From the NCBI RefSeq assembly GCF_029277445.1, contig NZ_CP119566.1:837001-901000 (forward strand): a stretch of 64,000 nt of DNA, written 5' to 3'. Position 1 is the stretch's first letter. Each line of letters begins with the position of its first letter. The position numbers were made by a program, and so were the translations under genes. This stretch comes from Pararhizobium qamdonense. GTDB lineage: Bacteria > Pseudomonadota > Alphaproteobacteria > Rhizobiales > Rhizobiaceae. The notes below the pieces were generated by a model. It did not search any database and was not told the origin of the DNA. It saw only the letters and a program-made list of their open reading frames with translations. This document shows, one piece after another, positions 6,659 through 32,879 of the stretch.

Positions 6659-6681
6659 CGTCTGTCTCCCGTCGCCTCGTA

Positions 6682-6960
6682 TCAGGCCGACTTCTTGTTG
6701 AGGGCGTTTTCTCCGGCATGTCTGGCAACGAAGGCCGTGATGCGTGCCACCGAATCCAGATTGGCGGGCACGATATCCGCATCGGCCATGACGAAGGCGA
6801 ACTGGTCTTCGATGAAGGCGACCAGTTCGAGAACGCCGGTGGAGTCGATGACTTCGTTTTCAATCAGCGACGCGTCGTCCTGCAGGTCATAGGCGGTGTC
6901 GCCAAACAGGAAGTTCTCGATGATGAAGGCCTTGATGCTGTCTTTGATGGGCTGGGTCAT
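6682..6960 (-). CDS. Stand-alone acyl carrier protein
   Basis: 92 residues, predicted acidic four-helix carrier protein. The phosphopantetheine attachment serine is Ser40 in the motif VIDSTGVLELV, where the family usually has DSL or DST. It is not the housekeeping AcpP (about 78 residues, DSLDTVELV) and lies between an AsnB-like gene (21 bp upstream) and an AMP ligase (23 bp downstream) on the same strand. The likely role is to hold the acid activated by the ligase while it is amidated or transferred. Dedicated carrier proteins of this kind also occur with AMP ligases and AsnB proteins in exosortase-associated and lipid/sugar-modifying loci. Confidence 0.85.
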   Translation of the reverse strand: MTQPIKDSIKAFIIENFLFGDTAYDLQDDASLIENEVIDSTGVLELVAFIEDQFAFVMADADIVPANLDSVARITAFVARHAGENALNKKSA

Positions 6961-6981
6961 AGGTTTTTCCTCAGATGAAGC

Positions 6982-8928: not shown

Positions 8929-9303
8929 GCAGCAAAATCCCTGACTTGCTCTTGGAGATTGCATAATGCCTGAAAAGTACCCGCTATGTGTTAATCTGGA
9001 CCAGAATTCAGAAGCAAATTCCGATATTTGATCTCACAGTTAAGATATCTTTAAGAATAAATTCCGCCTTTTATTAAAGATTTAATCAATGGAAAGCTGG
9101 TGTTTTTTCCTATTCGGATACGGTTGGAGCTTCGAACTTATGCCCGTTCCAGGCGATATGGTTCGACGGATGTCTGACGCCGCTTTCCAATGTTTTGCAA
9201 TCTTGGGTGGATTTTTGCGAATCTCAGGAGGACCTTGGGCAGACGCTTCCTCGCGCCGGCATGCTTAACCAATCCTGAAGATGGTGCCGGCCGGTGCGGC
9301 CGC
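8929..9303. other. AT-rich intergenic region upstream of the asnB-like operon
   Basis: This stretch separates the asnB-like start from the small membrane protein gene, both on the minus strand. Its 8,980-9,090 part is AT-rich and carries the TTAA-N7-TTAA box listed separately. A 59-codon plus-strand frame at 9089-9268 has no visible ribosome site and is not protein-like. No other feature is seen. Confidence 0.5.
9040..9054. promoter_or_regulatory. Candidate CtrA box upstream of the asnB-like operon
   Basis: TTAA-GATATCT-TTAA fits exactly the TTAA-N7-TTAA consensus bound by the cell-cycle regulator CtrA in alphaproteobacteria. It lies 112 bp upstream of the asnB-like ATG. The core AAGATATCTT is also a perfect palindrome. 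Binding is inferred from the consensus only. Confidence 0.45.
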
Positions 9304-9555
9304 TCAATCGCGAGGTGGGTTTGTGCGTATCGCCGCTGTGGGATCGACAAGTACGAATTCGGGCTTGGACGCGCCGGCCATGACCTTCAGGATGAAAACC
9401 AGTGTCAGCAGTGGCCAGACGAGGCAGAAGATCAGGCCGGCGATGCGGTGGGCCGACCATTGGCCGCCCGCCCTCTCGCCCTCGATATAGGTGGGGATGA
9501 GATAGACGAGGGTGACAGCACCGTAGGCAAGCGCCGCAATCTGCAGATTCGTCAC
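9304..9555 (-). CDS. Small two-helix membrane protein, unknown function
   Basis: The frame can be extended upstream to 9627, but a GTG at 9555 is preceded by GGGGGAG at a good distance, so the product is taken as 83 residues starting (V/M)TNLQIAALAYG. Two hydrophobic segments are visible (about 3-20 and 38-62), separated by a charged stretch with IEGERAGGQWSAHR, and the tail is hydrophilic. No family is recognised. A CtrA-type box sits about 90 bp upstream, the same signal as for the neighbouring operon, which suggests shared cell-cycle control. Confidence 0.55.
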   Translation of the reverse strand: MTNLQIAALAYGAVTLVYLIPTYIEGERAGGQWSAHRIAGLIFCLVWPLLTLVFILKVMAGASKPEFVLVDPTAAIRTNPPRD

Positions 9556-9644
9556 AATCGCGCTCCCCCATTTATCTTCGCACACTGTTCTGTCCTGCAA
9601 TTTGCGCTGAAGCCGCAGAGAAGTCACGGCTATAAGTGGTAAAA

Positions 9645-9659
9645 TTAACGATTTCTTAA
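9645..9659. promoter_or_regulatory. Candidate CtrA box upstream of the small membrane protein gene
   Basis: TTAA-CGATTTC-TTAA, followed by C, fits the TTAA-N7-TTAA(C) CtrA consensus exactly. It is 90 bp upstream of the GTG at 9555 and 605 bp from a second perfect match at 9040-9054. Inferred from sequence only. Confidence 0.45.
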
Positions 9660-9793
9660 CTTAAGGTAAATTTGCATTGCCTCCAGCGGTGGGCGTTTGA
9701 TCCTGGGATGTAGGCAATTCGGAGGTTTAGCGCCTGTGAGGCGGCGCGTGGCGCTGAAGAGTGCCGAATAGGATTTTTCCGGAGGAAATGACG

Positions 9794-9913
9794 ATGGTGG
9801 CAAGGGCAGACCATCAGCTAGAAACCAGGAAGACGTCGTTTTTCGCACCCGCTCCTGTGCCGCTGGTTGCAAAACATCTGCTGTTGCGGGCGGATCAAAA
9901 TGATGAAACCTAG
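9794..9913 (+). CDS. Possible small protein (39 aa)
   Basis: A short plus-strand frame, MVARADHQLETRKTSF..., ends with TAG at 9911-9913. GGAGG at 9781-9785 lies 8 bases before the ATG at 9794; an in-frame ATG at 9788 is too close to the ribosome site. The product is hydrophilic and basic, with no recognised family. The ribosome site is the only support. It could instead be the leader of an unrecognised transcript. Confidence 0.3.
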   Translation: MVARADHQLETRKTSFFAPAPVPLVAKHLLLRADQNDET

Positions 9914-10176
9914 AATCAATTAATGGTTGTATTTTCAATGTAGGTTGACCCAGTCGTCAGATTGCGTTGGCCGATACTGTGCGGCCTTTCAGTAAAAGGC
10001 ATCCGGTTTTTCCGATGCGCCCATGTGAAAATATCAATATAATCAAATTGATATGCCGCCGTTGAACCCAGAAATTTAGCATTGATCGCACTGATATTTA
10101 GAATTATATATGATCAAAAATTGCGCCAATTCTTAATCATTATTTTAGGTATTATACCAATAGTTGCATTGTGCAT

Positions 10177-17628: not shown

Positions 17629-18396
17629 TCACTCGTCGGTCATCTTTCCACTGCGCGATTCCAGCCGGTAGCGGTTGCCGGGATAGACCAGCCGGGCAAA
17701 GGAAACGACGCGTTTGGACGACCATGTGCGCCGCCGGATGAGCAGGCAGGGCTCTGTGCGCAGGATCACCAGAAGCTTGCATTCCCATGGCTGCGGCATG
17801 GCCGCTTCGACGATATGTTCGGAGCCGCTCAAAGGTGCTTCCGCCGTCAGATAGGCGTTCGGTGTCTGCACTGTAAAATCTTGCTCCAGGTAGCCGGGCG
17901 CTGCTTCCGGGTTGACGAAGCGGTCTTCGATCTGGACGGGAACGCCGTTTTCGCTGTGCACGATCAGCGAGTGAAACACGGGCGCGCCAATCGGTAACCC
18001 AAGCGCATCGGCAACGTCGGGTGCCGCTGTTTCCTGCGCCAGAACGACGACCGTGGCCTGGTGCGTATGGCCCCGCTCATCGATCTCCTCGGCGATGTTG
18101 CGCACTTCGAACAGTTCGGAATAGCCTTTGCGCTCGGCAACGAAGGAGCCGACGCCCTGGATGCGCACAAGTTCGCCTTCGCTTGCCAATTCCCGCAGCG
18201 CCCGGTTGGCCGTCATCTTGCTGACGCCCAGTTCCGCCACCAGTTCGTTTTCCGATGGGACCCGGTGTTTCGGCGGCCATTCGCCGCTCTGGATCCGGTC
18301 CAGGATCATCTGCTTGACGCCGGCATAAAGCGGCGATCCGTCATTGTCGCTGGTCACCCATTTTAACGGAGCGTTCTGGTCGTTGCTTCGTTTCAT
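17629..18396 (-). CDS. hutC-like: GntR/HutC-family transcriptional regulator (first of two)
   Basis: 255 residues. An N-terminal winged helix lies at about 20-85 (VPSENELVAELGVSKMTANRALREL), followed by the UTRA effector domain of the HutC subfamily. HutC repressors of histidine utilisation answer to urocanate. This gene is divergent from an amino-acid ABC importer and from the MIO-less lyase island, not from the main hut operon, which has its own HutC at 32968-33738. A 14-bp palindrome, ATATGGTACCATAT, lies between the two divergent starts. The two HutC proteins have different candidate operators, so they may answer to different ligands. Confidence 0.85.
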   Translation of the reverse strand: MKRSNDQNAPLKWVTSDNDGSPLYAGVKQMILDRIQSGEWPPKHRVPSENELVAELGVSKMTANRALRELASEGELVRIQGVGSFVAERKGYSELFEVRNIAEEIDERGHTHQATVVVLAQETAAPDVADALGLPIGAPVFHSLIVHSENGVPVQIEDRFVNPEAAPGYLEQDFTVQTPNAYLTAEAPLSGSEHIVEAAMPQPWECKLLVILRTEPCLLIRRRTWSSKRVVSFARLVYPGNRYRLESRSGKMTDE

Positions 18397-18468
18397 ATGC
18401 TTATTCCTTGGGCGGAATTAATTTTGCATTCAAATGCGGCCGCCCACTTGCATACCATAAAAATTAGC

Positions 18469-18482
18469 ATATGGTACCATAT
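18469..18482. promoter_or_regulatory. Candidate operator of the first HutC-like repressor
   Basis: ATATGGTACCATAT is a perfect 14-bp palindrome, 73 bp upstream of the regulator start and 111 bp upstream of the binding-protein start. A degenerate half copy (CATACCATA) is just to its left near 18451-18459. Confidence 0.65.
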
Positions 18483-18592
18483 ACAACGTGGATGTTTAGG
18501 GGCATTTTTCGCGTCTAGATTTCCATCAGTTATGTGTAAGCCGGCGCAGATCGGCGGACGTCGTTGAAGATAAACCTCAGAGGAACGTGAAC

Positions 18593-19432
18593 ATGAACCT
18601 GTCAAAATTTCTGATGGCTGGCGCCGTCGCATTTGCAACGCTTGCCGCTCCGATGGCTCAGGCCAAGGACTGGAAGACCGTGACCATCACGCTTGAAGGC
18701 GCCTATGCGCCGTGGAACCTCACGAATCCGGACGGCACGCTCGGCGGTTTCGAGCCGGAACTGGCGAAGTATCTCTGCGACCACATGAAGGTCGAATGCA
18801 CACTGGTTGCCTCCGACTGGGATGGCATGATCCCGGCGCTCAACGCCGGCAAGTTCGATGTGATCATGGACGCCCTGTCGATCACCGAAGAACGCAAGAA
18901 GATCATCGATTTCACCATTCCTTATGCCCATACGCATGCGGCTTTTGCGACGCTCAAGGATGGTCCGCTGGCCAATGCCGCAGGTACCGGCACGGTCGTG
19001 AAGCTCGATCCGGGCGCGACCGGCGTCAAGGAAGTCGAAGCGATGAAGGCCGCCTTTGCCGGCAAGACCATCGGTATCCAGGCCGCCACCGTCTATTCCA
19101 AGTTCGTCTATGACAATTTCGGCGATATCGCCACCGTTCGTGAATACAAGACCGGTGCGGAGCGCGATCTCGATCTGGAAACCGGCCGTATCGATCTCGT
19201 CTTCGACGACGCCGTCTACCTGATCTCGGCGTTTGACAAGTCCAACGGAACGCTCGGCTTCACCGGTCCTGAAATCGGCGGCACAATCTTCGGCAGCGGC
19301 GAAGGCCTTGGCGTGCGCCAGGCCGATACCGACCTGCGCGACATGCTGAGCAAGGCGATCCAGGCTGCTCTCGACGACGGCACGATCAAGACCCTGTCGA
19401 TGAAGTGGTTCAAGACCGACGTCACGCCCTGA
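18593..19432 (+). CDS. Polar amino-acid ABC transporter substrate-binding protein
   Basis: 279 residues from the ATG at 18593, which has AGAGGAA seven bases upstream. A cleavable signal peptide (MNLSKFLMAGAVAFATLAAPMAQA) precedes a type II periplasmic binding fold of the HisJ/LAO family: WNLTNPDGTLGGFEPELAKYL, then WDGMIPALNAGKFDVIMDALSIT. It should capture an amino acid or related cation in the periplasm for the two permeases and ATPase that follow. The context, a HutC repressor and a lyase of the histidine family, suggests histidine or a modified histidine. The exact ligand is not readable. Confidence 0.9.
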   Translation: MNLSKFLMAGAVAFATLAAPMAQAKDWKTVTITLEGAYAPWNLTNPDGTLGGFEPELAKYLCDHMKVECTLVASDWDGMIPALNAGKFDVIMDALSITEERKKIIDFTIPYAHTHAAFATLKDGPLANAAGTGTVVKLDPGATGVKEVEAMKAAFAGKTIGIQAATVYSKFVYDNFGDIATVREYKTGAERDLDLETGRIDLVFDDAVYLISAFDKSNGTLGFTGPEIGGTIFGSGEGLGVRQADTDLRDMLSKAIQAALDDGTIKTLSMKWFKTDVTP

Positions 19433-19441
19433 TCTCAAGTC

Positions 19442-19475
19442 TGTCCGCCGCTTGCTATTTTGCCTGCGGCGGGCA
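19442..19475 (+). promoter_or_regulatory. Intercistronic RNA hairpin after the binding-protein gene
   Basis: Ten-base-pair stem (TGTCCGCCGC / GCGGCGGGCA) directly after the binding-protein stop, with no T-run behind it. Hairpins at this place commonly stabilise the upstream mRNA and lower expression of the permease genes. Confidence 0.6.
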
Positions 19476-19576
19476 CACTTGCTGCGGCAGGTCGCTCTCT
19501 TCACGAGGCGCGGCCTTCCATATCCACCTGAAGATCGGGAATCCGGCCTTGCCGGGAACGACGGGATGCCTGCGGC

Positions 19577-20299
19577 ATGGCTTTACTTCAAATGATCGGT
19601 TTTGGCCCCACCGGCTGGGGCGGGCTGCTGCTCGTGGCGGCGCTCATGACGCTCTGCGTCACCGCCGTTGCTCTGTTGATCGGCGCTATCTTGGGCTCGC
19701 TCATTGCCTGGGCGAAGCTTTCGGGAAGCCGGATCATGCGCACGATCGGCGGCATCTACACCACGGTGTTCCGGGGCGTTCCCGAGCTGTTGATCATCTA
19801 TCTCGTCTATTTCGGCGGCTCGAGCGCCGTCACCGCCATCGGCACGGCCATGGGGTATGAGGGCTTCCTGGGGCTGCCCTCCTTTGCGGCCGGTGCGCTG
19901 GCGGTCGGAGTCATCTCCGGCGCCTACCAGGCGGAAGTGTTTCGCGGCGCCTATCTGGCCATCCCCAAGGGGGAACTGGAGGCGGCGCAGGCGATCGGCA
20001 TGAACCGCAGCCTGCGTTTTCGCCGCATCATCGGCCCGCAAGTCTTCCGTTTTGCCATTCCGGGTATCGGCAATGTCTGGCAGCTCAGCCTCAAGGACTC
20101 GGCGCTGGTCTCGGTCACCGGCCTTGCCGATTTGATGCGCACCAGCCAGGTCGCGGCCGGCTCCACCCGCCAGCACTTCCTGTTCTTCATTGTCGGCGGA
20201 TGCCTCTATCTGATCCTCACCAGCTTCTCGGACCGCATTTTCAACAGTGCCGAGAAGCGCGCCAATCGCAGCATGCCGACCAGCCTCGGCCAGGCCTGA
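19577..20299 (+). CDS. Amino-acid ABC transporter permease, HisQ type
   Basis: 240 residues with about five membrane helices. The loop contacting the ATPase reads GELEAAQAIGMNRSLRFRRII, matching the EAA motif of polar amino-acid permeases, preceded by FRGVPELLIIYLVYFG. It pairs with the next permease to form the channel. It lies 145 bp after the binding protein, with a hairpin in the gap, and 16 bp before the second permease. Confidence 0.9.
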   Translation: MALLQMIGFGPTGWGGLLLVAALMTLCVTAVALLIGAILGSLIAWAKLSGSRIMRTIGGIYTTVFRGVPELLIIYLVYFGGSSAVTAIGTAMGYEGFLGLPSFAAGALAVGVISGAYQAEVFRGAYLAIPKGELEAAQAIGMNRSLRFRRIIGPQVFRFAIPGIGNVWQLSLKDSALVSVTGLADLMRTSQVAAGSTRQHFLFFIVGGCLYLILTSFSDRIFNSAEKRANRSMPTSLGQA

Positions 20300-20314
20300 T
20301 CAAGGAGACGCGCG

Positions 20315-21025
20315 ATGGACATCGCCTTCATGTTCGAGACCATGAAAACGCTGCTGGCCGCTCTGCCGATGACGCTGGCGCTGTTTTCCCTTTCCGTCAT
20401 CTTCGGCGGGCTTCTGGCACTTCTGATCGTCTGGATGCGCGTCAGCGGCAATGCCGCCGCCCGCAATTTCGCCAAGGGCTATATCTTCGTGTTCCGCGGC
20501 TCGCCGCTTTTGATCCAGATGTTCCTGATCTTCTATGGCCTCGGCCAGTTCGGCTTCATCCGTTACAGTTTCCTGTGGCCGGCGCTGCGCGAGCCCTTCG
20601 TCTGCGCCGTCCTGTCGCTGGCGCTTTGCACCGCCGGTTATTCCGCCGAAATCTTCCGCTTCGGGCTTCGGGCCATTCCGGCCAAGGAGATCGAGGCGGC
20701 GCGCTCCATCGGCATGTCCGGCTTTCTGTTGACCCGCCGCATCCTTGCCCCGATCGCCTTCCGCCATGCGCTGCCGGCCTATTCGACGGAGGTGGTGATG
20801 ATGGTGAAATCGACAGCGCTTGCCAGCCTCGTCACCGTCTGGGAAGTAACCGGTGTAGCGCAGCGGCTGATCTCGCAGACCTACCGCACGATGGAAGTCT
20901 TCCTCTGTGCCGCCGCCATCTATCTCATCCTCAACTTCATCATCCTGCAGGCGATGGCGCTGCTTGAATACAAGCTGACCCCGCATCGCCGCGCTGCTCC
21001 TCTTTTCCCGGTGCCGCAACGATGA
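20315..21025 (+). CDS. Amino-acid ABC transporter permease, HisM type
   Basis: 236 residues, about five membrane helices, with the EAA loop [20 protein letters not shown] and [16 protein letters not shown]. Ribosome site AAGGAG precedes the ATG. Its stop overlaps the start of the ATPase gene by 4 bp, indicating translational coupling. It is the second half of the heterodimeric importer channel. Confidence 0.9.
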
Positions 21026-21828
21026 ACGCCGCGACCCTCAACCAGACTGGAACGACCATGGCAGGCACGACCCGGCTTTCCGTCCGCAACATCCGCAAGA
21101 GTTTCGGCACGCATGAAGTGCTGCGCGGCATCTCGCTCGAGGCCCGCGATGGCGATGTCATCTCGCTGCTCGGCGCCAGCGGCTCCGGCAAATCGACCTT
21201 CCTGCGCTGCATCAATCTTCTTGAAATTGCCGATCACGGCGAGATTTCCGTCGATGGCGAGCTGATCCAGATGCAGCAGCGCGGGGGAAAGAATGTCCCC
21301 GCCAACCGCCGGCAGGTGGACCGGATCCGCTCCGAACTCGGCATGGTGTTCCAGTCGTTCAATCTCTGGTCCCATATGACGATCCTTGAGAATGTCATCG
21401 AGGGGCCGGTTCATGTGCTGAAGCGCCCGCGCGCCGAATGTATTGCGGAAGCCGAGGCGCTTTTGGAAAAGGTGGGGATCGCGGAAAAGCGCCATGCCTA
21501 TCCAGCCCATCTTTCCGGCGGCCAGCAGCAGCGCGCGGCGATTGCCCGCTCATTGGCAATGCGGCCGAAGGTGATGCTTTTCGACGAGCCAACCTCGGCG
21601 CTTGATCCTGAACTGGTCGGCGAAGTGCTGCGCGTCATGCGTTCGCTGGCCGAAGAGGGCATGACCATGCTGGTCGTCACCCATGAAATGAGCTTTGCCC
21701 GCAACGTTTCCAACCGGGTGATCTTCATGAAATCCGGCGAGATCGACAGCGACGGCGCGCCGGAAGAGCTGTTCGGTTCCGGCGGTTCGCCGAGCTTCCG
21801 CCAGTTCATCGGCAATTTCGGAGGCTGA
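21022..21828 (+). CDS. Amino-acid ABC transporter ATP-binding protein, HisP type
   Basis: 268 residues with Walker [10 protein letters not shown], signature LSGGQQQR, Walker [16 protein letters not shown] and the H-loop THEMSFA. It energises the importer made of the two permeases upstream. An internal ATG ([12 protein letters not shown]) 12 codons in is a possible alternative start, but the ATGA overlap favours the one given. The lyase gene starts 2 bp after its stop, so importer and enzymes form one transcript. Confidence 0.95.
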
Positions 21829-21830
21829 AC

Positions 21831-23324
21831 GTGCAGGACATCGTACTCGACACGGCACCCGGCTGGCGTGCCGTGGCTGCGGTTGCCGATGGTGCAACGC
21901 TGTCGCTTTCCGACGCGGCCAGGACGCGGATCGGAACAGCAAGCCGCATCGTGTCGGCGATCGTCGAAAGCGGCGTGCGGGCCTATGGGGTGAATACCGG
22001 CGTCGGGGCGCTTGCCGATACGGTGGTCGATCGTCCCTCGCAGAGCCGCCTGTCGCGCAACATCATTTTGAGCCATGCCTGTGGCGTCGGCCCGTTGCTG
22101 GAGGCGCGGGAAGTTCGCGCCATCATCGCCGCCCAGATCGCCAATTTTTCCCACGGTCATTCCGGCGTGCGGCCAGTGATCGTGGACCTGCTGCAGGTCT
22201 TTCTGCGCGAAGATTGCATTCCCGACGTGCCGTCCAAGGGTTCGGCCGGCTATCTCAGCCATAATGCCCATATTGCGCTGGTATTGATCGGCGAGGGCAG
22301 GGCGCGGCTGAAGGGCGTTCCGGTATCCGGTGCGCAGGCTTTGCAGGCGCTTGGCGTTCCGCCGCTGGTTTTGCAGGCAAAGGAAGGCTTGAGCCTCGTC
22401 AATGGCACGGCCTGTTCTACCGGGCTCGGGGCCGTGGCGCTCGCGCGGGCTGAACGGCTTCTGGTCTGGGCCGATGCCATCGCAGCGTTGACGATCGAGG
22501 CGCTCGGCGGTCAGATGACCGCGTTTGACGCTGACGTGCTCGCGCTTCGCAAATCCAAGGGGATCGAGAAGGTCGGCAGCACTTTGCGCGCGCGTCTCGC
22601 CGGTAGTGGTCTGATCGAGGCGGCGAAAGGTGCGCGCACGCAGGATGCCTTAAGCCTTCGCTCGGTTCCGCACGCCCATGGCGCGGGATGGGATGTGTTT
22701 GATTTCGCCGGAATGGTCGTCGATCAGGAACTGGCCTCCGTGACGGACAATCCGGCAGTGTCCGGCACGCCGGAGACACCGGTGGTGTCCTCCGAGGCGC
22801 ATGCTGTGGCGCCGGCGCTCGGCCAGGCGCTGGATAGTCTCGCCATCGCCATTGCCCAGATTTCGATGATGAGCGAGCGCCGGATCGACCGTCTCGTCAA
22901 TCCGCTGGTGAGCGGTCTTCCGGCCTTTCTCGCCGCCGATCCGGGTGCCGGGTCCGGCTTCATGATCGCGCAATATACGGCAGCGGCTCTTGCGGCGGAA
23001 AACCGCCGTCTCGGGGCTCCGGCAAGCCTGGATGGCGGCATCACGTCGGCGCTGCAGGAGGATTTTCTTGGGCATCCGACGGCTGCGGCCAACAAGCTGC
23101 TTGCCGTGATCGATAATGCCGAGCAGATCCTCGGCATCGAATTTGCCGCTGCCGCGCAGGCGCAGGATTTCAAGGCCGATGTGGCGCCGCGCGCTGTGGG
23201 TACCGACGTGCTCTATCGCCATATCCGCGCGAATATGCCAACCTATGCCGACGACCGGCCGCTCGGCTGGGATCTGGAAAAGGCCCGCGACCTGCTCTTG
23301 CAATCGCCGCCTCCCCATATCTGA
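21831..23324 (+). CDS. Histidine/aromatic ammonia-lyase homologue lacking the MIO Ala-Ser-Gly triad
   Basis: 497 residues, aligned along its length with the HAL/PAL family: YGVNTGVG at 52-59, QAKEGLSLVNGT near 185, SVTDNPAVSG near 303. In the family the cofactor forms from Ala-Ser-Gly inside [15 protein letters not shown], as in HutH in this same window. Here the stretch reads KGSAGYLSHNAH (residues 136-147): three residues shorter, with no X-Ser-Gly triad. The frame continues normally on both sides, so it is not a frameshift. The start follows the ABC ATPase by 2 bp and a flavin oxidase follows. It may have another reaction (mutase, hydratase or binding role) or be inactive as a lyase; the substrate is probably histidine-like. 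Confidence 0.85.
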   Translation: MQDIVLDTAPGWRAVAAVADGATLSLSDAARTRIGTASRIVSAIVESGVRAYGVNTGVGALADTVVDRPSQSRLSRNIILSHACGVGPLLEAREVRAIIAAQIANFSHGHSGVRPVIVDLLQVFLREDCIPDVPSKGSAGYLSHNAHIALVLIGEGRARLKGVPVSGAQALQALGVPPLVLQAKEGLSLVNGTACSTGLGAVALARAERLLVWADAIAALTIEALGGQMTAFDADVLALRKSKGIEKVGSTLRARLAGSGLIEAAKGARTQDALSLRSVPHAHGAGWDVFDFAGMVVDQELASVTDNPAVSGTPETPVVSSEAHAVAPALGQALDSLAIAIAQISMMSERRIDRLVNPLVSGLPAFLAADPGAGSGFMIAQYTAAALAAENRRLGAPASLDGGITSALQEDFLGHPTAAANKLLAVIDNAEQILGIEFAAAAQAQDFKADVAPRAVGTDVLYRHIRANMPTYADDRPLGWDLEKARDLLLQSPPPHI

Positions 23325-23345: not shown

Positions 23346-24503
23346 ATGACCGCCCATTTTGACGTTGCCGTTATCGGCCTTGGCGCCATGGGCAGTGCTG
23401 CGATCGCGCATCTGGCCGCCCGTGGTGCAAAGGTGATCGGCATAGACGCCTATTATCCGGCACACGCGCTAAGTTCGTCGCATGGCGATAGCCGGTTGAT
23501 TAGGCTTGGTTATTTCGAAGACCCATCCTATGTGCCGCTGCTGCAGCGTGCCTATGCCAACTGGCGCGCGCTCGAAGCGCGGCTGCGCGAGGATATTTTG
23601 ACGATCACCGGCGTGCTGCAGATCGGCAAACCCGACAGCAAGATCGTCAGCGGCACGAAGAAGAGCTGCGCGCTGCACAACCTGCCGCTCGAAACCCTTG
23701 ATCCCGGCGAAATGCGCCGCCGCTTCCCGGTGTTTTCTCTCGATGATGACGAGGTGGCACTGCTCGATCCGCAGGGTGGTTATCTCAAGCCCGAAGCGGC
23801 TGTGATGGGGCATCTGAAACTTGCGGCCGCCGATGGTGCCGCCTTGCATTTCGGCGAGAAGGTGACGGCGATCGAGCCGGGCGAGGGCGGGGTTGCCATC
23901 GTTTCGCAGACCGGGCGTTATCATGCGAGCAAGGTCATCGTTGCGACCGGCTCATGGATCGGCGAGCTGGTGCCTGATCTGCGCGACCATGCGGTGCCGA
24001 TCAAGCAGGTAGTCTCCTGGTATCAACCCACCGACGGTTTTGTCACGATGCCGCAACGCATGCCGGTGTTCATCCGTGACGAGGGCGACAACGGTTCATT
24101 CTTTGGCTTCCCGGCGATCGGCGTCGATGGCGTCAAGGTCGGCCGTCATGCGCATTTCCGCGAACCGATCGATCCGAACCAGCCCAATCCGGCCGTCAAC
24201 GGCAAGGACACGGATCTGCTCGACAGCTTCATCAAGCGCCGGCTGCCGGCCGCTGCCGGGCTGCGGGTACGCTCCACCACCTGCCGCTATACGATGCTGC
24301 CGAGCGAGGATTTTTTGCTCGATCTGTTACCGGGCGACAAACGCATCGTCGTGGCGTCGCCCTGCTCCGGCCATGGGTTCAAGTTCACCAGCGTCGTGGG
24401 CGAGATCCTTGCCGATCTGGCGCTGGAGGGCGGCACGGACTTGCCGATCGGGGCCTTCTCGTTTGCCGCGATGGACCGGTTTCTGGCAGCGCGGGCGGCT
24501 TGA
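23346..24503 (+). CDS. Monomeric sarcosine oxidase / N-methyltryptophan oxidase-like flavoprotein
   Basis: 385 residues of the DAO superfamily. The N-terminal FAD dinucleotide fold is FDVAVIGLGAMGSA, followed by SSSHGDSRLIRLGY as in MSOX/SolA. Cys313 in TTCRYTMLPSEDF occupies the place of the cysteine that binds FAD covalently in monomeric sarcosine oxidase, and PCSGHGFKF closes the active site. Such enzymes oxidise N-methyl or secondary amines to imines, releasing formaldehyde or an aldehyde plus H2O2. It lies between the MIO-less lyase (21 bp) and an arginase-family gene (2 bp), so it likely demethylates or deaminates the imported compound. Confidence 0.88.
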   Translation: MTAHFDVAVIGLGAMGSAAIAHLAARGAKVIGIDAYYPAHALSSSHGDSRLIRLGYFEDPSYVPLLQRAYANWRALEARLREDILTITGVLQIGKPDSKIVSGTKKSCALHNLPLETLDPGEMRRRFPVFSLDDDEVALLDPQGGYLKPEAAVMGHLKLAAADGAALHFGEKVTAIEPGEGGVAIVSQTGRYHASKVIVATGSWIGELVPDLRDHAVPIKQVVSWYQPTDGFVTMPQRMPVFIRDEGDNGSFFGFPAIGVDGVKVGRHAHFREPIDPNQPNPAVNGKDTDLLDSFIKRRLPAAAGLRVRSTTCRYTMLPSEDFLLDLLPGDKRIVVASPCSGHGFKFTSVVGEILADLALEGGTDLPIGAFSFAAMDRFLAARAA

Positions 24504-24505
24504 GC

Positions 24506-25438
24506 ATGACCTACACATTGAAACCTGCGACCGCGACCTTCCTTGGCCTGCCGGCCGCGCGCCAGGCCCGGCCGGGTTCGGCAGCGATTTTCGGCGCAGT
24601 GCATGGAACCGCCTATCCGAATGCCGTTCAGACTATATCCGGCATATCAGCGCCTGATGCTGTGCGCCGGGCGATCACGGAAGCATCCGTGCATGTGGAT
24701 CACTGGGATTTCGATTTTGACGGCCCTCTGTTGAACGATGGTGGGCTGGATGTGGTGGATCTCGGCGATATCGAGACGGAGCCAGAGGACAATGCCGGTA
24801 ATCGCGCGGCGATCGAGGCGGCAACACGGGATATCCGGGCGGCGGGCGCTGTTCCGATCCTGATCGGCGGCGACGATTCGGCCGCTATTCCTTTCATGCG
24901 CGGTCTTGCGGATGCCGTTGACCTGCATATCCTGCAGATCGATGCGCATATCGATTGGCGCGACAGGATCGGTGAAGAGACGCTCGGCTATTCCAGCACG
25001 ATGCGGCGGGCTTCCGAACTGCCGTTCGTGCGCTCCATGACCCAGGTCGGCATTCGCGCCGTCGGCAGTGCGCGCCGGGAAGAGGTCGAGGCGGCAAAAG
25101 CCTGGGGTTCGCGGGTGGTCACGGTGCGCCAGGTGCGGGCAAGCGGTGTCGCCGAAATCGCCGATGCCATCCCGCGTGACGGCGCGCTGCTGATCCATAT
25201 CGATGTCGATGCGCTCGATCCGTCGATCTGCCCCGGCATCAACGCCTTGTCGCCTGGAGGCCTGTGGTTTGAGGAAGTGACCGATCTGATTGCCGCAGCC
25301 ATGACCGGGCGCAGGCTTGCCGGCTTCTCCATCGTCGAGTTTCAGCCGGCAAACGACGTCAACTCCATGACCGCGACGGTCGTTGGCAGGTTGATCTGCC
25401 ATGTCCTGGGCAATCTGGCCCGCCAGACCGGGGGCTAG
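24506..25438 (+). CDS. Arginase/agmatinase-family hydrolase with an altered first metal motif
   Basis: 310 residues of the ureohydrolase fold. The dinuclear metal ligands are mostly kept: DAHID at 146-150 and IDVDALDP with Asp233 and Asp235. The first motif, usually GGDHS, reads GGDDS (121-125), replacing a metal-binding histidine by Asp124. The family includes arginase, agmatinase, guanidinobutyrase, formiminoglutamase and nickel guanidine hydrolase. A formimino or guanidino bond in a histidine-derived product would fit the neighbours. The ATG at 24506 follows the oxidase stop by 2 bp. It converges on hutD and is the last gene of the island. Confidence 0.82.
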   Translation: MTYTLKPATATFLGLPAARQARPGSAAIFGAVHGTAYPNAVQTISGISAPDAVRRAITEASVHVDHWDFDFDGPLLNDGGLDVVDLGDIETEPEDNAGNRAAIEAATRDIRAAGAVPILIGGDDSAAIPFMRGLADAVDLHILQIDAHIDWRDRIGEETLGYSSTMRRASELPFVRSMTQVGIRAVGSARREEVEAAKAWGSRVVTVRQVRASGVAEIADAIPRDGALLIHIDVDALDPSICPGINALSPGGLWFEEVTDLIAAAMTGRRLAGFSIVEFQPANDVNSMTATVVGRLICHVLGNLARQTGG

Positions 25439-25445
25439 AGTTGTT

Positions 25446-26012
25446 TTAAGCCGGGGTGATGCGGATCAGGTACGTCTCCGTTGGCATGTCGGACGTGATC
25501 AGCACGACGCCCTCAAGGATGGCGCAATCGAGACGTCCGAGTTCTTCGCCGTGGCTCTGGCTGTCGATCCGCATGTTGCCGAGCGAAAGAAGCATCGTGA
25601 CGCCGCCTTCGGCATCCAGATGATGCTGGCCTTCGACAACCCGCCTTTCGACCTGATGTGTCCATTGCCCCCGGCGCGTCATGACATTGAGATCGACGAT
25701 CGTTCCCGATACCAGCCGCGCGGATGTCTGGGCGTCGGCCGGGAAGGCCAGCGGGTGAGAGGCCTGCGTCAACAGGGTGGAGGGCCTTCCGGCGATGTCG
25801 AGCTCCATGCCTTTCCCCTCAAGGATCGACAGGGTGCGGTCTATTCCAGCGAAAACGGAAAACGGTCCATCGCTTGCCACCGTCGCCATGCTGACGCGCC
25901 AACCGAAACTTGCGAGATCGGCTTCCGGCGGAAACACCGCAATCTCCACCGTCTCGCCGCCGCCGTTTTTCCACGGCATGCGGCGATAATCTTTCGAGTG
26001 AAGAACGTGCAT
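25446..26012 (-). CDS. hutD: HutD family protein
   Basis: 188 residues from the second ATG (26012), which has AAGGGA 9 bases upstream; the ATG two codons earlier is too close to it. It has the HutD opening LHSKDYRRMPWKNGGGETVEI and a bicupin-like beta pattern (SMATVASDGPFSVFAGIDRTL). HutD accompanies hut operons; it is thought to modulate or protect hut expression, possibly by binding urocanate or formylglutamate, and is not catalytic in the known pathway. It is the last gene of the hutI-H-G-U-D run, 101 bp after hutU with a small hairpin in the gap. Confidence 0.88.
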   Translation of the reverse strand: MHVLHSKDYRRMPWKNGGGETVEIAVFPPEADLASFGWRVSMATVASDGPFSVFAGIDRTLSILEGKGMELDIAGRPSTLLTQASHPLAFPADAQTSARLVSGTIVDLNVMTRRGQWTHQVERRVVEGQHHLDAEGGVTMLLSLGNMRIDSQSHGEELGRLDCAILEGVVLITSDMPTETYLIRITPA

Positions 26013-26079
26013 AGCCATTGTCCCTTAAAGGTGGCGTGTCCGTTGGCATAGAAGCCAGCCTTGTTTTACAGGCGTCCTG

Positions 26080-26113: not shown

Positions 26114-27787
26114 TTAGTTCCCCAGAATCCCCGGCAACCGCAGACCCTTTTCCTTGGCGCAATCGATGGCAATGTCGTAGCCCGCGTCGGCGTGGCGCAT
26201 GACGCCGGTGGCCGGGTCGTTCCAGAGCACGCGCTCCAGGCGGCGGGCCGCATCGTCGGTACCATCGGCGCAGATGACGACGCCGGAATGCTGCGAGAAG
26301 CCCATGCCGACGCCGCCGCCATGGTGCAACGACACCCAGGTGGCGCCCGATGCGGTGTTGAGCAACGCGTTGAGCAGCGGCCAGTCGGATACGGCGTCCG
26401 AGCCATCCTTCATCGCTTCGGTCTCGCGGTTTGGCGAGGCGACGGAGCCGGAATCGAGATGGTCGCGGCCGATGACGACCGGGGCGGAGAGTTCGCCTGT
26501 TCTGACCATCTCGTTGAAGGCGAGGCCCAGCCGGTGGCGGTCGCCGAGACCGACCCAGCAAATGCGCGCCGGCAAGCCCTGGAAGGCGATGCGTTCGGCG
26601 GCCATGTCGAGCCAGTTGTGCAGGTGCTTGTTGCCGGGGGTGAGTTCCTTCACCTTGGCATCCGTCTTGCGGATGTCTTCCGGATCACCGGAGAGTGCTG
26701 CCCAGCGGAAGGGGCCGATGCCGCGGCAAAACAGTGGGCGGATATAGGCGGGCACAAAGCCCGGAAAGGCAAAGGCGTTTTCGAGGCCCTCATCCTTGGC
26801 GACCTGGCGGATGTTGTTGCCATAGTCGAAGGTCGGGATGCCCATGTCCTGGAAGGCGATCATCGCCTCGACATGGTCGCGCATGGAGGCGCGGGCCGCC
26901 TTTTCGACGGCTTTCGGGTCGCTTTCGCGCTTTTCCTTCCACTCTCCCATCGTCCAGCCCTTCGGCAGATAGCCGTTGACCGGGTCATGGGCCGAGGTCT
27001 GGTCGGTGACCATGTCGGGGCGGATGCCGCGGCGGACCATTTCCGGCAGGATTTCGGCGGTATTGCCGAGCAGGCCGACGGATTTTGCCTCGCCGGCGGC
27101 GGTCCAGCGCGCGATCATTTCCATCGCCTCGTCCAGCGTTTCCGCCTTCTCATCGACATAGCGGGTGCGCAGGCGGAAATCGATCGAATCGGGATTGCAT
27201 TCCACGGCAAGGCAGCAGGCGCCGGCCATGACGGCGGCCAGCGGCTGGGCGCCGCCCATGCCGCCGAGACCGCCGGTCAGAACCCATTTGCCCTTGAGGT
27301 TATCGCCATAGTGCTGGCGTCCGGCCTCGACGAAGGTCTCGTAGGTGCCCTGAACGATACCCTGCGTGCCGATATAAATCCACGAACCGGCCGTCATCTG
27401 GCCGTACATGGCAAGGCCCTTCTTATCCAGTTCGTTGAAATGATCCCAGGTCGCCCAATGCGGAACGAGGTTGGAATTGGCGATGAGCACGCGCGGCGCA
27501 TCCTTGTGGGTGCGGAACACGCCGACCGGCTTGCCCGACTGCACCATCAGCGTCTCGTCTTCATTGAGGTCGCGCAGCGTTTCGACGATCTTGTCGAAAT
27601 CGGCCCAGGTGCGGGCGGCGCGGCCGATGCCGCCATAGACGACCAGTTCATGCGGGTTCTCGGCCACTTCGGGATCGAGATTGTTCATCAGCATGCGAAG
27701 CGGCGCTTCGGTCATCCAGGATTTTGCGGTCAGCTCGGTGCCACGGGCGGCGCGGACGTCGCGAATATTGTGACGAGGATTGGTCAT
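26114..27787 (-). CDS. hutU: Urocanate hydratase
   Basis: 557 residues, the family length. It uses tightly bound NAD+ as an electrophile to turn urocanate into imidazolonepropionate, the second step of histidine degradation. Recognisable stretches are [19 protein letters not shown] in the NAD-binding domain, [18 protein letters not shown] and [16 protein letters not shown]. The start overlaps the hutG stop by 4 bp (ATGA), so translation is coupled. Cytoplasmic enzyme in the hutI-H-G-U-D operon. Confidence 0.97.
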
Positions 27788-28602
27788 TTTGTTCCCCTTT
27801 TGGTGTGTGCCAGTGTCAGCGCTACTGTTTCGATGCGCGTGAGAATGTCTTTTAAGTGGATGCGGAGTTTGGCCGCCTTGACCTCGTCATAGGCGAAGGG
27901 CGGCGTTTCCGTGCTCAGGTGCGTGGCTTGCGCCAGTTCCATCTGTATCGTTTGGACGCCGTTTTCCTGATCGCTGTAATGGCGCGTCGTCCATCCGCCC
28001 TTGAAGCGGCCGTTGAGGATGCTGGTATAGCCCTCGGCATTCAAAACGACATCGACCGTTGCGTCCTGGATGGCTGGATCGCAGGTCTTGCCCATGTCGG
28101 TGCCGATGTTGAAGTCGGGCAATGTCCCTTCGAACAGGAACGGAATGTCCGACCGGATCGAATGGCAATCGTAAACGACGGCAATGCCGTGGATAGCCTT
28201 TACGCGCTTGATCTCGGCCAGGAGCGCGGCATGATAGGGCGTGTGGAAATCGGCAAGACGGGCGGCGATATCGGCTTCGGTCGGCTCTTCCCCGTCCTTC
28301 CAGATCGGGACGCCGTCGAAATCCGTTTCCGGAATGAGACCGGTGGTATTCTGGCCGGGATAAAGGCTGACGCCTTCCGGATCGCGGTTTGCGTCTAGGA
28401 CGTAGCGATGGAACGTGGCGCGCACCGTGGTCACATCCGGCAGCAGGCCGTCATAGAGGCGATGGATGTGCCAGTCGGTATCGGTCAGCAGCCGGCCTGT
28501 CTCGTTGAGCCGCTCCCAGATGTCCGGAGGAACGTCGGTGCCGGTATGGGGGAAGCCGAGGATGACCGGCGATGTGCCCTGTTTGATTTCAAAAACGCTC
28601 AT
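27784..28602 (-). CDS. hutG: N-formylglutamate deformylase
   Basis: 272 residues of the FGase family: [13 protein letters not shown] near residue 18, [14 protein letters not shown], and [16 protein letters not shown] near residue 143, which supply the metal and catalytic residues. It hydrolyses N-formylglutamate to glutamate and formate, the last step of the five-step hut pathway used when HutF is present. It starts 1 bp after the hutH stop and overlaps hutU by 4 bp. Confidence 0.93.
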
Positions 28603-30187: not shown

Positions 30188-31438
30188 TCAGTGCCCGTTG
30201 CGCACACGCGCATGCAGCGGGTTGAAGCCCATGCGATAGACGAGCTCAGCCGGCCGCTCGATATTCCAGATGGCGAAATCGGCCCATTTTCCAGGTTCCA
30301 GCGTCCCCACTTCATCGACCAGACCCAAGGCGCGGGCAGCCTCTCGCGTCACGCCGGCAATGCATTCGGTGACTGTCATGCCAAACAGGGTGGCTGCCAT
30401 ATTCATGGTGAGAAGCAGCGATGTCAGCGGCGAGGTGCCCGGATTGTTGTCGGTGGCGATGGCCATGGCGACGCCCGCCTTGCGGAACAGATCGACCGGC
30501 GGCTTCTTCGTCTCACGGATGAAATAGAATGCGCCTGGTAGGATGACGGCAACGGTGCCGCTTTTCGCCATCGCTTCTGCGCCGGCCGCGTCGGTATATT
30601 CGAGGTGATCAGCCGAAAGCGCGCCATATTCGGCAGCAAGCGCTGCGCCATGCAGGTTGGACAGCTGGTCGGCATGCAGCTTGACCGGCAGGCCATGGGT
30701 TTTTGCAGCATTAAAGACCAGCCGCATTTCATCGGTCGAAAAGGCGATGCCTTCGCAGAAACCATCGACCGCATCCGCCAAGCCTTCGGCGGCGATGGCG
30801 GGCAGCATCTCGTCCACCACCTTGGCGATATAGCCGGCTTTGTCCCCCTTGAATTCCGGCGGCAGCGCGTGGGCGCCGAGGAAGGTCGTTCGGACCGCGA
30901 CATCGCGCTCATCGCTCAGGCGGCGTGCGGCGCGCAAGGCCTTGGCCTCGTTTTCGAGGTCGAGGCCATAGCCGGACTTGACTTCGACCGTGGTGACGCC
31001 CTCGGCAATCAGCGCGTCCAGACGGGGAAGCGTCTGCGCGACAAGCTCATCTTCGCTGGCTTCCCGGAGCGCGCGGACGGAGGAAACGATGCCGCCGCCG
31101 GCACGCGCGACCTCTTCGTATGTTGCGCCCGCGAGCCGCATTTCGAATTCGTTGGCGCGGTCACCGGCATGGACGAGATGGGTGTGGCAGTCGATCAGGC
31201 CGGGGGTGATCCAGCGGCCACCGCAATCGATGATTTCGGCGGCATGTTCGATCGGGAAGGGCAGGCTGGCTTCGGCGCCGGCATAGAGGATGCGCCCGTC
31301 CTGAACGGCGATGACGCCGTTTTCGATAAGGCCAAGACCCGGCAAAGCGGGGTTCAGCGTTGCCAGCCGGGCGTTTCGCCACAGACGGTCGCAGGCGGCG
31401 GGCTTTGTGCTGTCTGGTGCCGATTTTATGGAAGACAT
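30188..31438 (-). CDS. hutI: Imidazolonepropionase
   Basis: 416 residues, metal-dependent amidohydrolase. [19 protein letters not shown] carries the first metal His-X-His pair and the substrate-binding region, followed by [15 protein letters not shown] and [18 protein letters not shown] near the C-terminus. It opens imidazolonepropionate to N-formimidoylglutamate. First gene of the minus-strand hut operon and divergent from hutF; a TTATGTATAGACATAA operator is 29 bp upstream of its start. Confidence 0.96.
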
Positions 31439-31466
31439 CGTTTTCTAGCCTTTCCTTTTCGTGCTA

Positions 31467-31482
31467 TTATGTATAGACATAA
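31467..31482. promoter_or_regulatory. Candidate HutC operator between hutI and hutF
   Basis: TTATGTATAGACATAA has perfect TTATGT/ACATAA arms around ATAG. The core TGTATAGACA is like operators reported for HutC repressors of other proteobacteria. It is placed to control both hutI-H-G-U-D and hutF-hutC. The binding protein is inferred to be the HutC encoded at 32968-33738. Confidence 0.7.
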
Positions 31483-31538
31483 AGAAAATCAGCGCAAGTG
31501 GTTTTTTTCGAGCGGCGCAGTCAGGAAGGGATGAGGCC

Positions 31539-32879
31539 TTGACCAGCATTCATGTGAAATCGGCTCTGACGCCGGCGGGATGGCAGGCGGATGTGCGGCT
31601 GACGATCGAGGGCGGCAGGATCGCGACCGTCGCAGCGGGGGTGGCTGCAGAGGCTGGCGACGAGCGCCACGATATCCTAGTGCCCGGCATGCCGAACCTG
31701 CACAGCCACGCCTTTCAGCGCGGCATGGCGGGCCTTGCCGAAACCCGCGGTCCTGGCGCCGACAGCTTCTGGAGCTGGCGCACGATGATGTACCGTTTTG
31801 CGCTGACAATGACGCCGGATCATGCCGAAGCGGTCGCCAGTCAGCTCTATATGGAAATGCTGGAAGCCGGGTTTTCGCGCGTCGGCGAGTTTCATTATCT
31901 GCACCATGACATCGATGGCCGCGCGTATGCCGATATTTCTGAAATGGCGCAGCGTATCGCATCTGCTGCTTCACAGACGGGGATCGGTTTGACGCTGCTT
32001 CCGGTTTTCTACGCGCGTTCTACATTCGGCGGTGCTGCGCCGAACGAGGGGCAGCGCCGTTTTATCAACACGGCCGAGAGCTTCGAGCGGCTGCTCGATG
32101 GCTGCCGTTCCGTAGTCAAGGATTTGCCGGAGGGCCGCGCGGGCGTGGCGCCGCACAGCTTGCGGGCAGTGACGCCGGATGAGCTTGCCGCAGTCGTCGC
32201 AATGGCGAAGGATGGGCCGATCCATATCCACGTGGCCGAACAGGTCAAGGAAGTGGAGGATTGCGTCGCCTGGTCCGGCGCGCGTCCGGTCGAATGGCTG
32301 CTCGACAATGCAGGGCTTGATGACCGCTGGTGCCTGATCCACGCAACCCACATGACCGATGACGAAACCCGGCGGATGGCCGGGAGCAAGGCGATTGCCG
32401 GCCTCTGCCCGATCACCGAAGCCAATCTCGGCGATGGCACGTTTAATGCGGTCGTCTTTGCAGAAGCGGGCGGCAAGTTTGGTATCGGCTCGGATTCCAA
32501 CGTGCTGATCGGCCTGCCGGATGAACTGCGCCAACTCGAATATTCGCAGCGCCTGGCGCATCGCTCCCGTAACGTTCTGGCGGCACCCGGCCAATCGACC
32601 GGACGCGCTTTGTTTGACGGCGCCATCGACGGCGGCGGCATCGCCATGGCAATCAAGACCGGTATCGCTGCCGGCAATCCCGCCGATTTTGTCAGCCTGC
32701 GTGTGCCGGAGGGCGATCTTGCCGGTGATGCGGTTCTGGATTCCTGGCTGTTTGCCAATGGCACGAAGCCGGACAGCGTCTGGGTTGCGGGCCGCAAGCA
32801 GGTGGACGGCGGCCGCCATCGCAGGCGGGACGAGATATCGGCCAAATTCCGTAGCGTGATGCGCGAGCTTCTGGCCTGA
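31539..32879 (+). CDS. hutF: Formimidoylglutamate deiminase
   Basis: 446 residues from a TTG at 31539, chosen because AGGAAGG lies 9 bases upstream and because the family starts just there (TSIHVKSALTPAGWQADV). Amidohydrolase: NLHSHAFQRGMAGLAE supplies the first metal pair, HIHVAEQVKEVEDC the next, GSDSNVLIG the distal Asp. It deiminates N-formimidoylglutamate to N-formylglutamate plus ammonia, feeding HutG. HutF plus HutG show the five-step hut route. The in-frame extension upstream to 31461 would run through the operator and is rejected. Confidence 0.94.
   Translation: MTSIHVKSALTPAGWQADVRLTIEGGRIATVAAGVAAEAGDERHDILVPGMPNLHSHAFQRGMAGLAETRGPGADSFWSWRTMMYRFALTMTPDHAEAVASQLYMEMLEAGFSRVGEFHYLHHDIDGRAYADISEMAQRIASAASQTGIGLTLLPVFYARSTFGGAAPNEGQRRFINTAESFERLLDGCRSVVKDLPEGRAGVAPHSLRAVTPDELAAVVAMAKDGPIHIHVAEQVKEVEDCVAWSGARPVEWLLDNAGLDDRWCLIHATHMTDDETRRMAGSKAIAGLCPITEANLGDGTFNAVVFAEAGGKFGIGSDSNVLIGLPDELRQLEYSQRLAHRSRNVLAAPGQSTGRALFDGAIDGGGIAMAIKTGIAAGNPADFVSLRVPEGDLAGDAVLDSWLFANGTKPDSVWVAGRKQVDGGRHRRRDEISAKFRSVMRELLA

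Follow-up and report, generated by a model that had tools for sequence, protein, structure and literature searches.

A MIO-less histidase homologue in a transporter operon of Pararhizobium qamdonense, a candidate lyase for histidine betaine

Introduction

What reaction, if any, is carried out by a histidase homologue which lacks the residues forming the catalytic MIO group, and is encoded close to a normal hutH gene? The question is raised by a gene, called HAL2 in this work, found in the window, that is the whole stretch of 64,000 nucleotides of the Pararhizobium qamdonense genome analysed here. Databases file proteins of this type as second histidases, under names such as hutH1, hutH2 or HAL/PAL/TAL family. 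A sequence-only reading of the locus had assumed that HAL, PAL, TAL and the aminomutases all need MIO, and took this to suggest that HAL2 serves a different reaction, rather than being in simple decay. The assumption has to be dropped, since ergothionase, a MIO-less member of the HAL family, eliminates trimethylamine from a histidine betaine (passages of PMC13405746; PDB 6s7j). The suggestion is the best reading of the purifying selection and of the conserved clade described below. On balance, HAL2 is probably a MIO-independent lyase acting on a histidine betaine, most likely hercynine, with formation of urocanate and trimethylamine. A substrate of this kind is suggested by the analogy with ergothionase, by the operon hosting an Agrobacterium relative, and by the ordinary type of the urocanate hydratase (HutU) encoded nearby. 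The absence of the MIO motif, the conservation of the loop and of specific residues, the gene context and the ordinary HutU are computed observations.

HAL2 has the histidase fold and lacks the MIO triad

The HAL2 gene, its altered loop and the control hutH gene of the window are the following:

21831..23324, plus strand: MIO-less HAL-family lyase (HAL2), 497 aa, GTG start; PF00221 464.8 bits; TIGR01225 (hutH) 453.6 bits, below the cut-off of 539.15; AlphaFold2 pLDDT 90.9
22236..22271, plus strand: KGSAGYLSHNAH loop, codons and residues 136-147, replacing the MIO-forming Ala-Ser-Gly loop
28604..30139, minus strand: canonical HutH with Ala-Ser-Gly (control); TIGR01225 725.8 bits, over the cut-off of 539

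The HAL2 frame is open, and the PF00221 match spans residues 14-466, hence the full-length fold, as the earlier reading had it. Aligned to the HutH of the window, HAL2 reads GSAGY---LSHNAH; three columns are gaps and YLS falls at the MIO site, in agreement with the loss of three residues and the replacement of the loop proposed before at 22236-22271. Ala-Ser-Gly was not found at the MIO site in this alignment. The claim that no X-Ser-Gly triad exists thus holds for that site, but seven x-Ser-Gly triplets occur in HAL2, all outside it. Judging from the protein sequence, MIO cannot be expected to form.

HAL2 resembles HutH (P. putida 1b8f and the HutH of the window; 36-37% identity) in the fold, in the equivalents of Y53, H83, Q277, R283 and E414, and in the Ser-His switch, but differs in lacking Ala-Ser-Gly and Tyr280, and in remaining below the TIGR01225 equivalog cut-off. 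The AlphaFold2 model (mean pLDDT 90.9, pTM 0.92) has TM-scores of 0.93 to P. putida HAL (1b8f) and 0.91 to ergothionase 6s7j, and HAL2 is placed nearer to MIO histidases than to 6s7j by both phmmer and Foldseek, which speaks against the betaine reading. Entries below rank 39 in one list of matches are unrelated helical or fumarase-like proteins.

Conservation and spread of the loop

The GSAGYL loop is found in each of the 120 best homologues out of 5097 retrieved at E<=1e-30; among these 120, the sequence KGSAGYLxHNAH occurs in 103, and the loop has other neighbours in 17. Such sharing is more than chance. When five close relatives were compared, dN/dS ranged from 0.080 to 0.131 for HAL2, and from 0.046 to 0.060 for hutH. 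The view that HAL2 is a decaying hutH duplicate has the lost catalytic triad in its favor, but hardly deserves credit, and simple decay was rejected: the frame is open, dN/dS is low, the same loop is kept in the best 120 homologues, and the modelled structure is close to that of the P. putida enzyme.

We call GYL clade, a name of our own, the HutH1/HutH2-type paralogues marked by a G-[ST]-x-G-Y-L loop and by Leu at the position of histidase Tyr280; HAL2 has both marks. The loop recurs in rhizobia, Pseudomonas, Enterobacterales, Burkholderia, actinobacteria (Rathayibacter) and Priestia. It is found in rhizobial relatives 54-59% identical to HAL2 (L138, L139), in a Priestia plasmid protein (L140, 41%) and in a Klebsiella plasmid protein (L141, 38%). 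Of the 120 best homologues of the latter, 117 carry the loop, which was not found in three shorter ones (306-418 aa). In six of the 117 an Ala-Ser-Gly lies just before the loop (PASGSVGY), off the MIO position, and in others 27 residues upstream. Two MIO-less members (L140:5941-7479 and L195:1456-2982) pass the curated TIGR01225 cut-off (592 and 547 versus 539), and automated annotation is therefore misled. By similarity alone, 191 Klebsiella plasmid records have some match to the query lyase.

Within Rhizobiaceae, 31 of 199 sampled genomes, that of the window included, match L138 at E<=1e-100, and the loop, read in 20 of the matching loci (L175-L194), is of the GYL type in all 20. A search of 199 Rhizobiaceae genomes for the Klebsiella-type lyase (query P0163, E<=1e-100) returned none, a result which, lacking a positive control, shows nothing.

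Trees were computed without the loop columns. HAL2, the rhizobial type linked to betaine importers and a Pseudomonas-like type fall in a branch of 21 rows, supported by an SH-aLRT value of 99, and by 100/99 in a second tree; the Klebsiella type and Priestia lie outside. GYL proteins group with MIO histidases, and 6s7j with L114 and L120, though the program warns of long branches. The notion of a separate conserved clade, raised by the sequence-only reading, fits the loop shared by the best 120 of 5097 homologues and the support for the branch of the window. A single branch sets all GYL proteins apart in only 19% of the 200 bootstrap trees, too few to show one origin for them all.

Active site residues

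Residues were compared in 107 GYL and 58 MIO proteins. The set included every third of 240 search proteins, if longer than 470 aa, along with the tree rows and the MIO HutH ORFs, so that the presence of the loop Tyr in 100% of the GYL proteins reflects the choice of the set; Leu at the position of Tyr280, found in 107 of 107 GYL proteins and also in 6s7j, does not. In histidase a Tyr and a Glu are catalytic, Asn, Gln and Arg residues position the substrate, and a Ser-His pair acts as a histidine switch (passages of PMC11432326). Y53, H83, Q277, R283 and E414 are kept in more than 90% of the proteins of either group. Val386 of HutH is replaced by Tyr in 98% of the GYL proteins, and the equivalent of Asn195 is kept in only 58%, which counts against the proposed reaction. 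HAL2 itself keeps the switch (S81-H82), Y52, R277 and E410. The other family motifs, said to be intact, are so for these residues, but not throughout, as Tyr280 is replaced by Leu274, and the GGNFHAEP segment is altered. The pattern suggests that imidazole and carboxylate binding and the catalytic base persist in GYL proteins, and that the electrophile has been lost together with its helper; retention of the former and loss of the latter would suit the elimination of a better leaving group.

Organization of the HAL2 operon

The remaining genes of the HAL2 region are listed in order:

17629..18396, minus strand: HutC-like repressor (GntR/UTRA), transcribed divergently from the transporter-lyase genes; TIGR02018 (HutC) 300.7 bits, cut-off 220
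18467..18484, no strand: near-perfect palindrome GCATATGGTACCATATAC in the gap between the hutC-like gene and the operon, found by palindrome scan; putative operator
18587..19432, plus strand: solute-binding protein, SBP_bac_3 (basic amino acid/opine type); PF00497 3.4e-34; TIGR01096 213.8 bits, below the cut-off of 256
19577..20299, plus strand: ABC permease, HisQ/ArtQ-like; PF00528; HisQ model below cut-off
20315..21025, plus strand: ABC permease, ArtM/HisM-like; PF00528; models below cut-off
21022..21828, plus strand: ABC ATPase, HisP-like; PF00005; HisP model 331 bits, below the cut-off of 466
23346..24503, plus strand: SolA/MTOX-like FAD N-methyl amino acid oxidase; NF008425 (N-methyl-L-tryptophan oxidase) 423 bits, cut-off 257
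24500..25438, plus strand: arginase/ureohydrolase-family protein; PF00491; scores far short of the cut-offs for the agmatinase and HutG models
25446..26018, minus strand: HutD of the convergent hut operon; named after the orthologue annotated on R. johnstonii pRL11
26114..27787, minus strand: HutU urocanate hydratase, ordinary type; TIGR01228 973 bits, over the cut-off of 375
27784..28602, minus strand: HutG N-formylglutamate deformylase; TIGR02017 379.6 bits, over the cut-off of 279
30188..31438, minus strand: HutI imidazolonepropionase; named from annotated orthologues
31461..32879, plus strand: HutF formimidoylglutamate deiminase; named from annotated orthologues

HAL2 is the fifth gene in a plus-strand run encoding the solute-binding protein, two permeases, the ATPase, HAL2, the SolA-like oxidase and the ureohydrolase, and thus lies downstream of a dedicated ABC importer (18587-21828). 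The run is preceded by the divergent HutC-like gene, which occupies the same place in most rhizobial loci, and is followed by the convergent hutD-U-G-H-I operon. That HAL2 is embedded in an operon, with a canonical hutH nearby, had been rightly noticed, but hutH sits in the separate, convergent operon. The palindrome scan picked one palindrome before the transporter-lyase operon and one near hutF, and no operator motif shared by the two emerged. The HutU of the window scores below the cut-offs for thiourocanate and S-methyl-thiourocanate hydratases (NF058530, NF058531).

Among the loci L001-L080, SolA is matched in 38 of 80, and the ureohydrolase in 7 of 80, which are the closest relatives (L001-L007); on these counts, neither was retained as an obligatory partner of HAL2. 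A single PF11927 (oxidative demethylase-like) match is found far from the window.

Importers and hut genes linked to GYL lyases

Importer genes were called upstream if on the same strand and within 5.5 kb, and were counted in 123 GYL loci, L134-L136 having been dropped beforehand. The loci are not independent, as most are from Rhizobiaceae and at least six (L186-L190, L193) repeat genomes of L001-L080. One of two importer types precedes 107 of the 123 GYL genes, OpuAC/betaine-type in 32 and window-type in 75, and 16 genes have neither type upstream; an OpuAC gene resides anywhere in the fetched stretch in 35 of 123. By comparison, OpuAC is found in none of 20 control loci, hand-chosen from genomes with one PF00221 match and all carrying a MIO hutH; in one of these (L209) window-type permease and ATPase genes lie nearby, without a match for the solute-binding protein. 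OpuAC genes are located upstream of 6 of 52 MIO hutH genes, but all six reside in loci also holding a GYL gene. In turn, OpuAC occurs in 1 of 44 GYL-free loci, L123, whose lyase is MIO-less and of the GCAD (ergothionase-like) type, like that of L114; since the sole exception is of this kind, the betaine-type importer seems to go with lyases that lack MIO rather than with histidases.

The opuAC-W-V genes lie directly upstream of the lyase in 10 of 11 rhizobial loci of the L138 type, and in the eleventh an OpuAC gene is nearby on the other strand; Pfam confirms OpuAC in L138, L139 and L141. Copies of HAL2 67-71% identical, found in Agrobacterium and kin (L048, L050 and L072, for example), are associated with an OpuAC importer. 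The type of importer switches, therefore, even among close relatives of HAL2. A caveat is that proline betaine, choline and other compounds are also transported by OpuAC importers. That the branch of the window relies on a histidine/arginine-like SBP_bac_3 importer, not on OpuAC, speaks against a betaine as substrate, as do the 16 of 123 genes preceded by neither type.

Some hut gene, HutC-like ones included, is found in the fetched stretch of 113 of the 123 GYL loci, hutU, hutI or hutF in 57, a SolA match in 43, and a MIO hutH in 29. In the Klebsiella plasmid pKP12 (L141:455-10328) a hut-like cluster comprises the MIO-less lyase, an OpuC-like importer, hutU, hutD, hutC and hutF; no MIO hutH was found in the fetched stretch. 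The window, pRL11 and the Klebsiella plasmid all encode a HutU of the ordinary urocanate type, below the thiourocanate cut-offs; urocanate is therefore the expected product of the lyase there, which points to hercynine as the parent betaine.

These counts bear on the idea that HAL2 is a pseudoenzyme tuning histidase or HutC, either as a urocanate- or histidine-binding protein or as a partner of HutH in mixed tetramers. With three subunits contributing to each active site of histidase (passages of PMC11432326), a MIO-less subunit could modulate HutH. A HutH match, called by similarity alone (62-96% identity), is moreover present in all the 30 other Rhizobiaceae genomes hosting such a lyase; GYL lyases thus add to histidase and do not replace it. 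Yet GYL proteins retain the equivalents of catalytic Y53 and E414, the commonest upstream partner is an importer, a MIO hutH lies within the fetched stretch of only 29 of the 123 loci, and L139 has the lyase in a catabolic operon, its fetched stretch containing no MIO hutH. All this makes a purely regulatory HAL2 quite improbable.

Relationship to hutH1 and hutH2

In five loci (L223, L225, L226, L230, L231) the GYL lyase is located directly behind opuAC-opuW-opuV and before MIO hutH. The order in L226 is hutC, hutD, hutU, a purine-type (Transp_cyt_pur) permease gene, opuAC, opuW, opuV, the GYL gene, MIO hutH, an amino acid permease gene and hutI, and is the same as in the hutTu-hutXWV-hutH1-hutH module of SBW25 (passages of PMC8871633). 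By position, not by name, the GYL gene of L226 is the counterpart of SBW25 hutH1. Passages of PMC8871633 call hutH1 a histidase, with no mention of MIO, and report that it can be dispensed with on histidine. They also give HutXWV of P. fluorescens a part in the uptake of histidine, which counts against a betaine as substrate. The window operon differs from the hutXWV-hutH1 module in having an SBP_bac_3 importer, and adds the SolA and ureohydrolase genes.

The hutXWV-hutH2 arrangement of S. meliloti is presumably the same. It is reportedly induced by histidine, and hutH2 mutants are said to grow about 30% slower on histidine. If so, these mutants would either argue against betaine cleavage, or reflect polar effects.

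One could regard HAL2 as a second histidase served by a histidine importer, still deaminating histidine with another electrophile, or slowly without any. The importer resembles His/Arg-type systems, public records annotate hutH or histidine ammonia-lyase, and the growth effect of S. meliloti hutH2 goes in the same direction. The loss of the MIO triad, and of Tyr280 in 107 of 107 proteins, as the presence of a normal HutH next door, render this very unlikely.

HAL2 and ergothionase

Ergothionase is the only MIO-less family member whose reaction was found described. As the Treponema denticola enzyme (6s7j/6s7q), HAL2 has a PF00221-type fold, no MIO, Leu in place of Tyr280, and the E414 equivalent. 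In contrast, the loop of 6s7j (SSIGEGDITTLSHI, SSIGEGD type) is one residue shorter than in histidase, that of HAL2 three residues shorter, hence the GSAGYL loop is two residues shorter than its 6s7j counterpart; the two proteins are 28% identical, and in the tree, where branches are long, 6s7j groups with L114/L120, away from GYL. No thiourocanate-pathway gene was recognised beside HAL2 among the window proteins scanned, at variance with the context of ergothionase. In genomes of the same order as that of the window, further proteins have an altered MIO site which is shorter by one residue (GASD, GAAD, GAGD, GCAD); the first three variants are found in HAL-family proteins of L121, L125-L127 and L129-L132. 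In L123 (2417-8054) the GCAD-type lyase gene is adjoined by OpuAC-type importer genes on the same strand. Given ergothionase and these altered sites, loss of MIO in this fold is already known, and what seems new here is the apparently separate GYL clade, along with the context in which it is found and the substrate it probably uses. Among the open-licence papers searched, no title or opening of an abstract dealt with a hercynine lyase or with a MIO-less hutH1 or hutH2.

The genome of the window hosts another MIO-less lyase (GSIGCADIGLMGQ) at L114 (G000:C1:2037000-2049000), whose best PDB match is ergothionase 6s7j. ORFs of the locus span 4882-6432, 6344-7819, 7819-9087, 9084-10175 and 10370 onward, and matches to ErtD, ErtE, thiohydantoin desulfurase and thiourocanate hydratase exceed the cut-offs, so L114 is likely a complete locus for ergothioneine degradation. 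Because this locus has its own lyase, HAL2 is not needed for ergothioneine breakdown, and was rejected as the ergothionase of the genome. The Ert proteins of ergothioneine utilisation, covered by NCBIfam families (ErtD, ErtE, thiourocanate hydratase, thiohydantoin desulfurase), would share with the HAL2 region a logic in which a betaine lyase is followed by a hydratase and by ring opening, but ordinary hut enzymes are encoded in the window, and no Ert match was found among the ten window proteins scanned with profiles.

A GYL relative 54% identical to HAL2 is encoded by the Agrobacterium plasmid pAt15955 (L139, 1-10482), behind an OpuAC importer. Its neighbours include a hydratase over the S-methyl-thiourocanate hydratase cut-off (975.8 versus 880) and ErtD (782.8 versus 600). 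L139 is probably an S-methyl-ergothioneine operon, and the importer, the hydratase and ErtD together make a setting which calls for a trimethylamine-lyase. Genes annotated as Mo S/N-oxide reductase and Zn hydrolase are also found there.

The same locus lends some weight to the notion that HAL2 uses unchanged chemistry on another alpha-N-substituted or ring-modified histidine betaine, such as ergothioneine, S-methyl-ergothioneine or ring-methylated hercynine; ergothionase, which has in common with HAL2 the loss of MIO and the Leu at Tyr280, does the same. Were the ring methylated, the downstream steps would require an oxidase for N-methylglutamate and an uncommon type of formimino hydrolase, roles that the SolA-like protein and the ureohydrolase could fit. 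Still, we consider such substrates unlikely for HAL2: the HutU of the window is ordinary and below both thiourocanate cut-offs, the scan of operon proteins revealed no Ert gene, and ergothioneine has its own locus and lyase in the genome. By analogy, HAL2 plausibly works like ergothionase, and is better filed in a new clade of MIO-less proteins with this fold than as an ergothionase proper.

Proposed role of HAL2 and of the GYL clade

In the model proposed HAL2 would be a catalytically active, MIO-independent C-N lyase with the histidase fold, binding an imidazole amino acid as HutH does. A quaternary alpha-amine on the substrate would itself be a good leaving group, so that an electrophilic cofactor would not be needed. 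The likeliest candidate is hercynine (N-alpha,N-alpha,N-alpha-trimethyl-L-histidine, or histidine betaine), which the ABC transporter of the window would import. A base, presumably Y52 and/or E410, would take the beta-proton, trimethylamine would depart, and the urocanate formed would be converted to glutamate by the adjacent ordinary HutU-HutI-HutF-HutG pathway. The HutC-like repressor would switch the operon on, probably through urocanate, and the SolA-like oxidase may demethylate mono- and dimethylhistidine for entry via HutH.

Extending the model to the whole GYL clade is tempting, though we would put the extension somewhat short of probable. GYL proteins may be widespread cofactor-free histidine-betaine lyases, which arose separately from ergothionase. 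Combined with hutXWV or SBP_bac_3 importers, they may turn the hut pathway into a route for methylated histidines, hercynine entering via the lyase, mono- and dimethylhistidine via SolA and HutH, with release of trimethylamine in soils and around roots; the route would also be carried by Klebsiella and other plasmids. If this is true, the second histidases of Rhizobium, Pseudomonas, Klebsiella plasmids and other bacteria have been wrongly named, and there would be a testable answer to why hutH1, dispensable on histidine, stays beside a betaine-type importer. Hercynine is the precursor of ergothioneine, and is made by fungi and actinobacteria; GYL lyases would define a microbial sink for this compound, and a source of trimethylamine.
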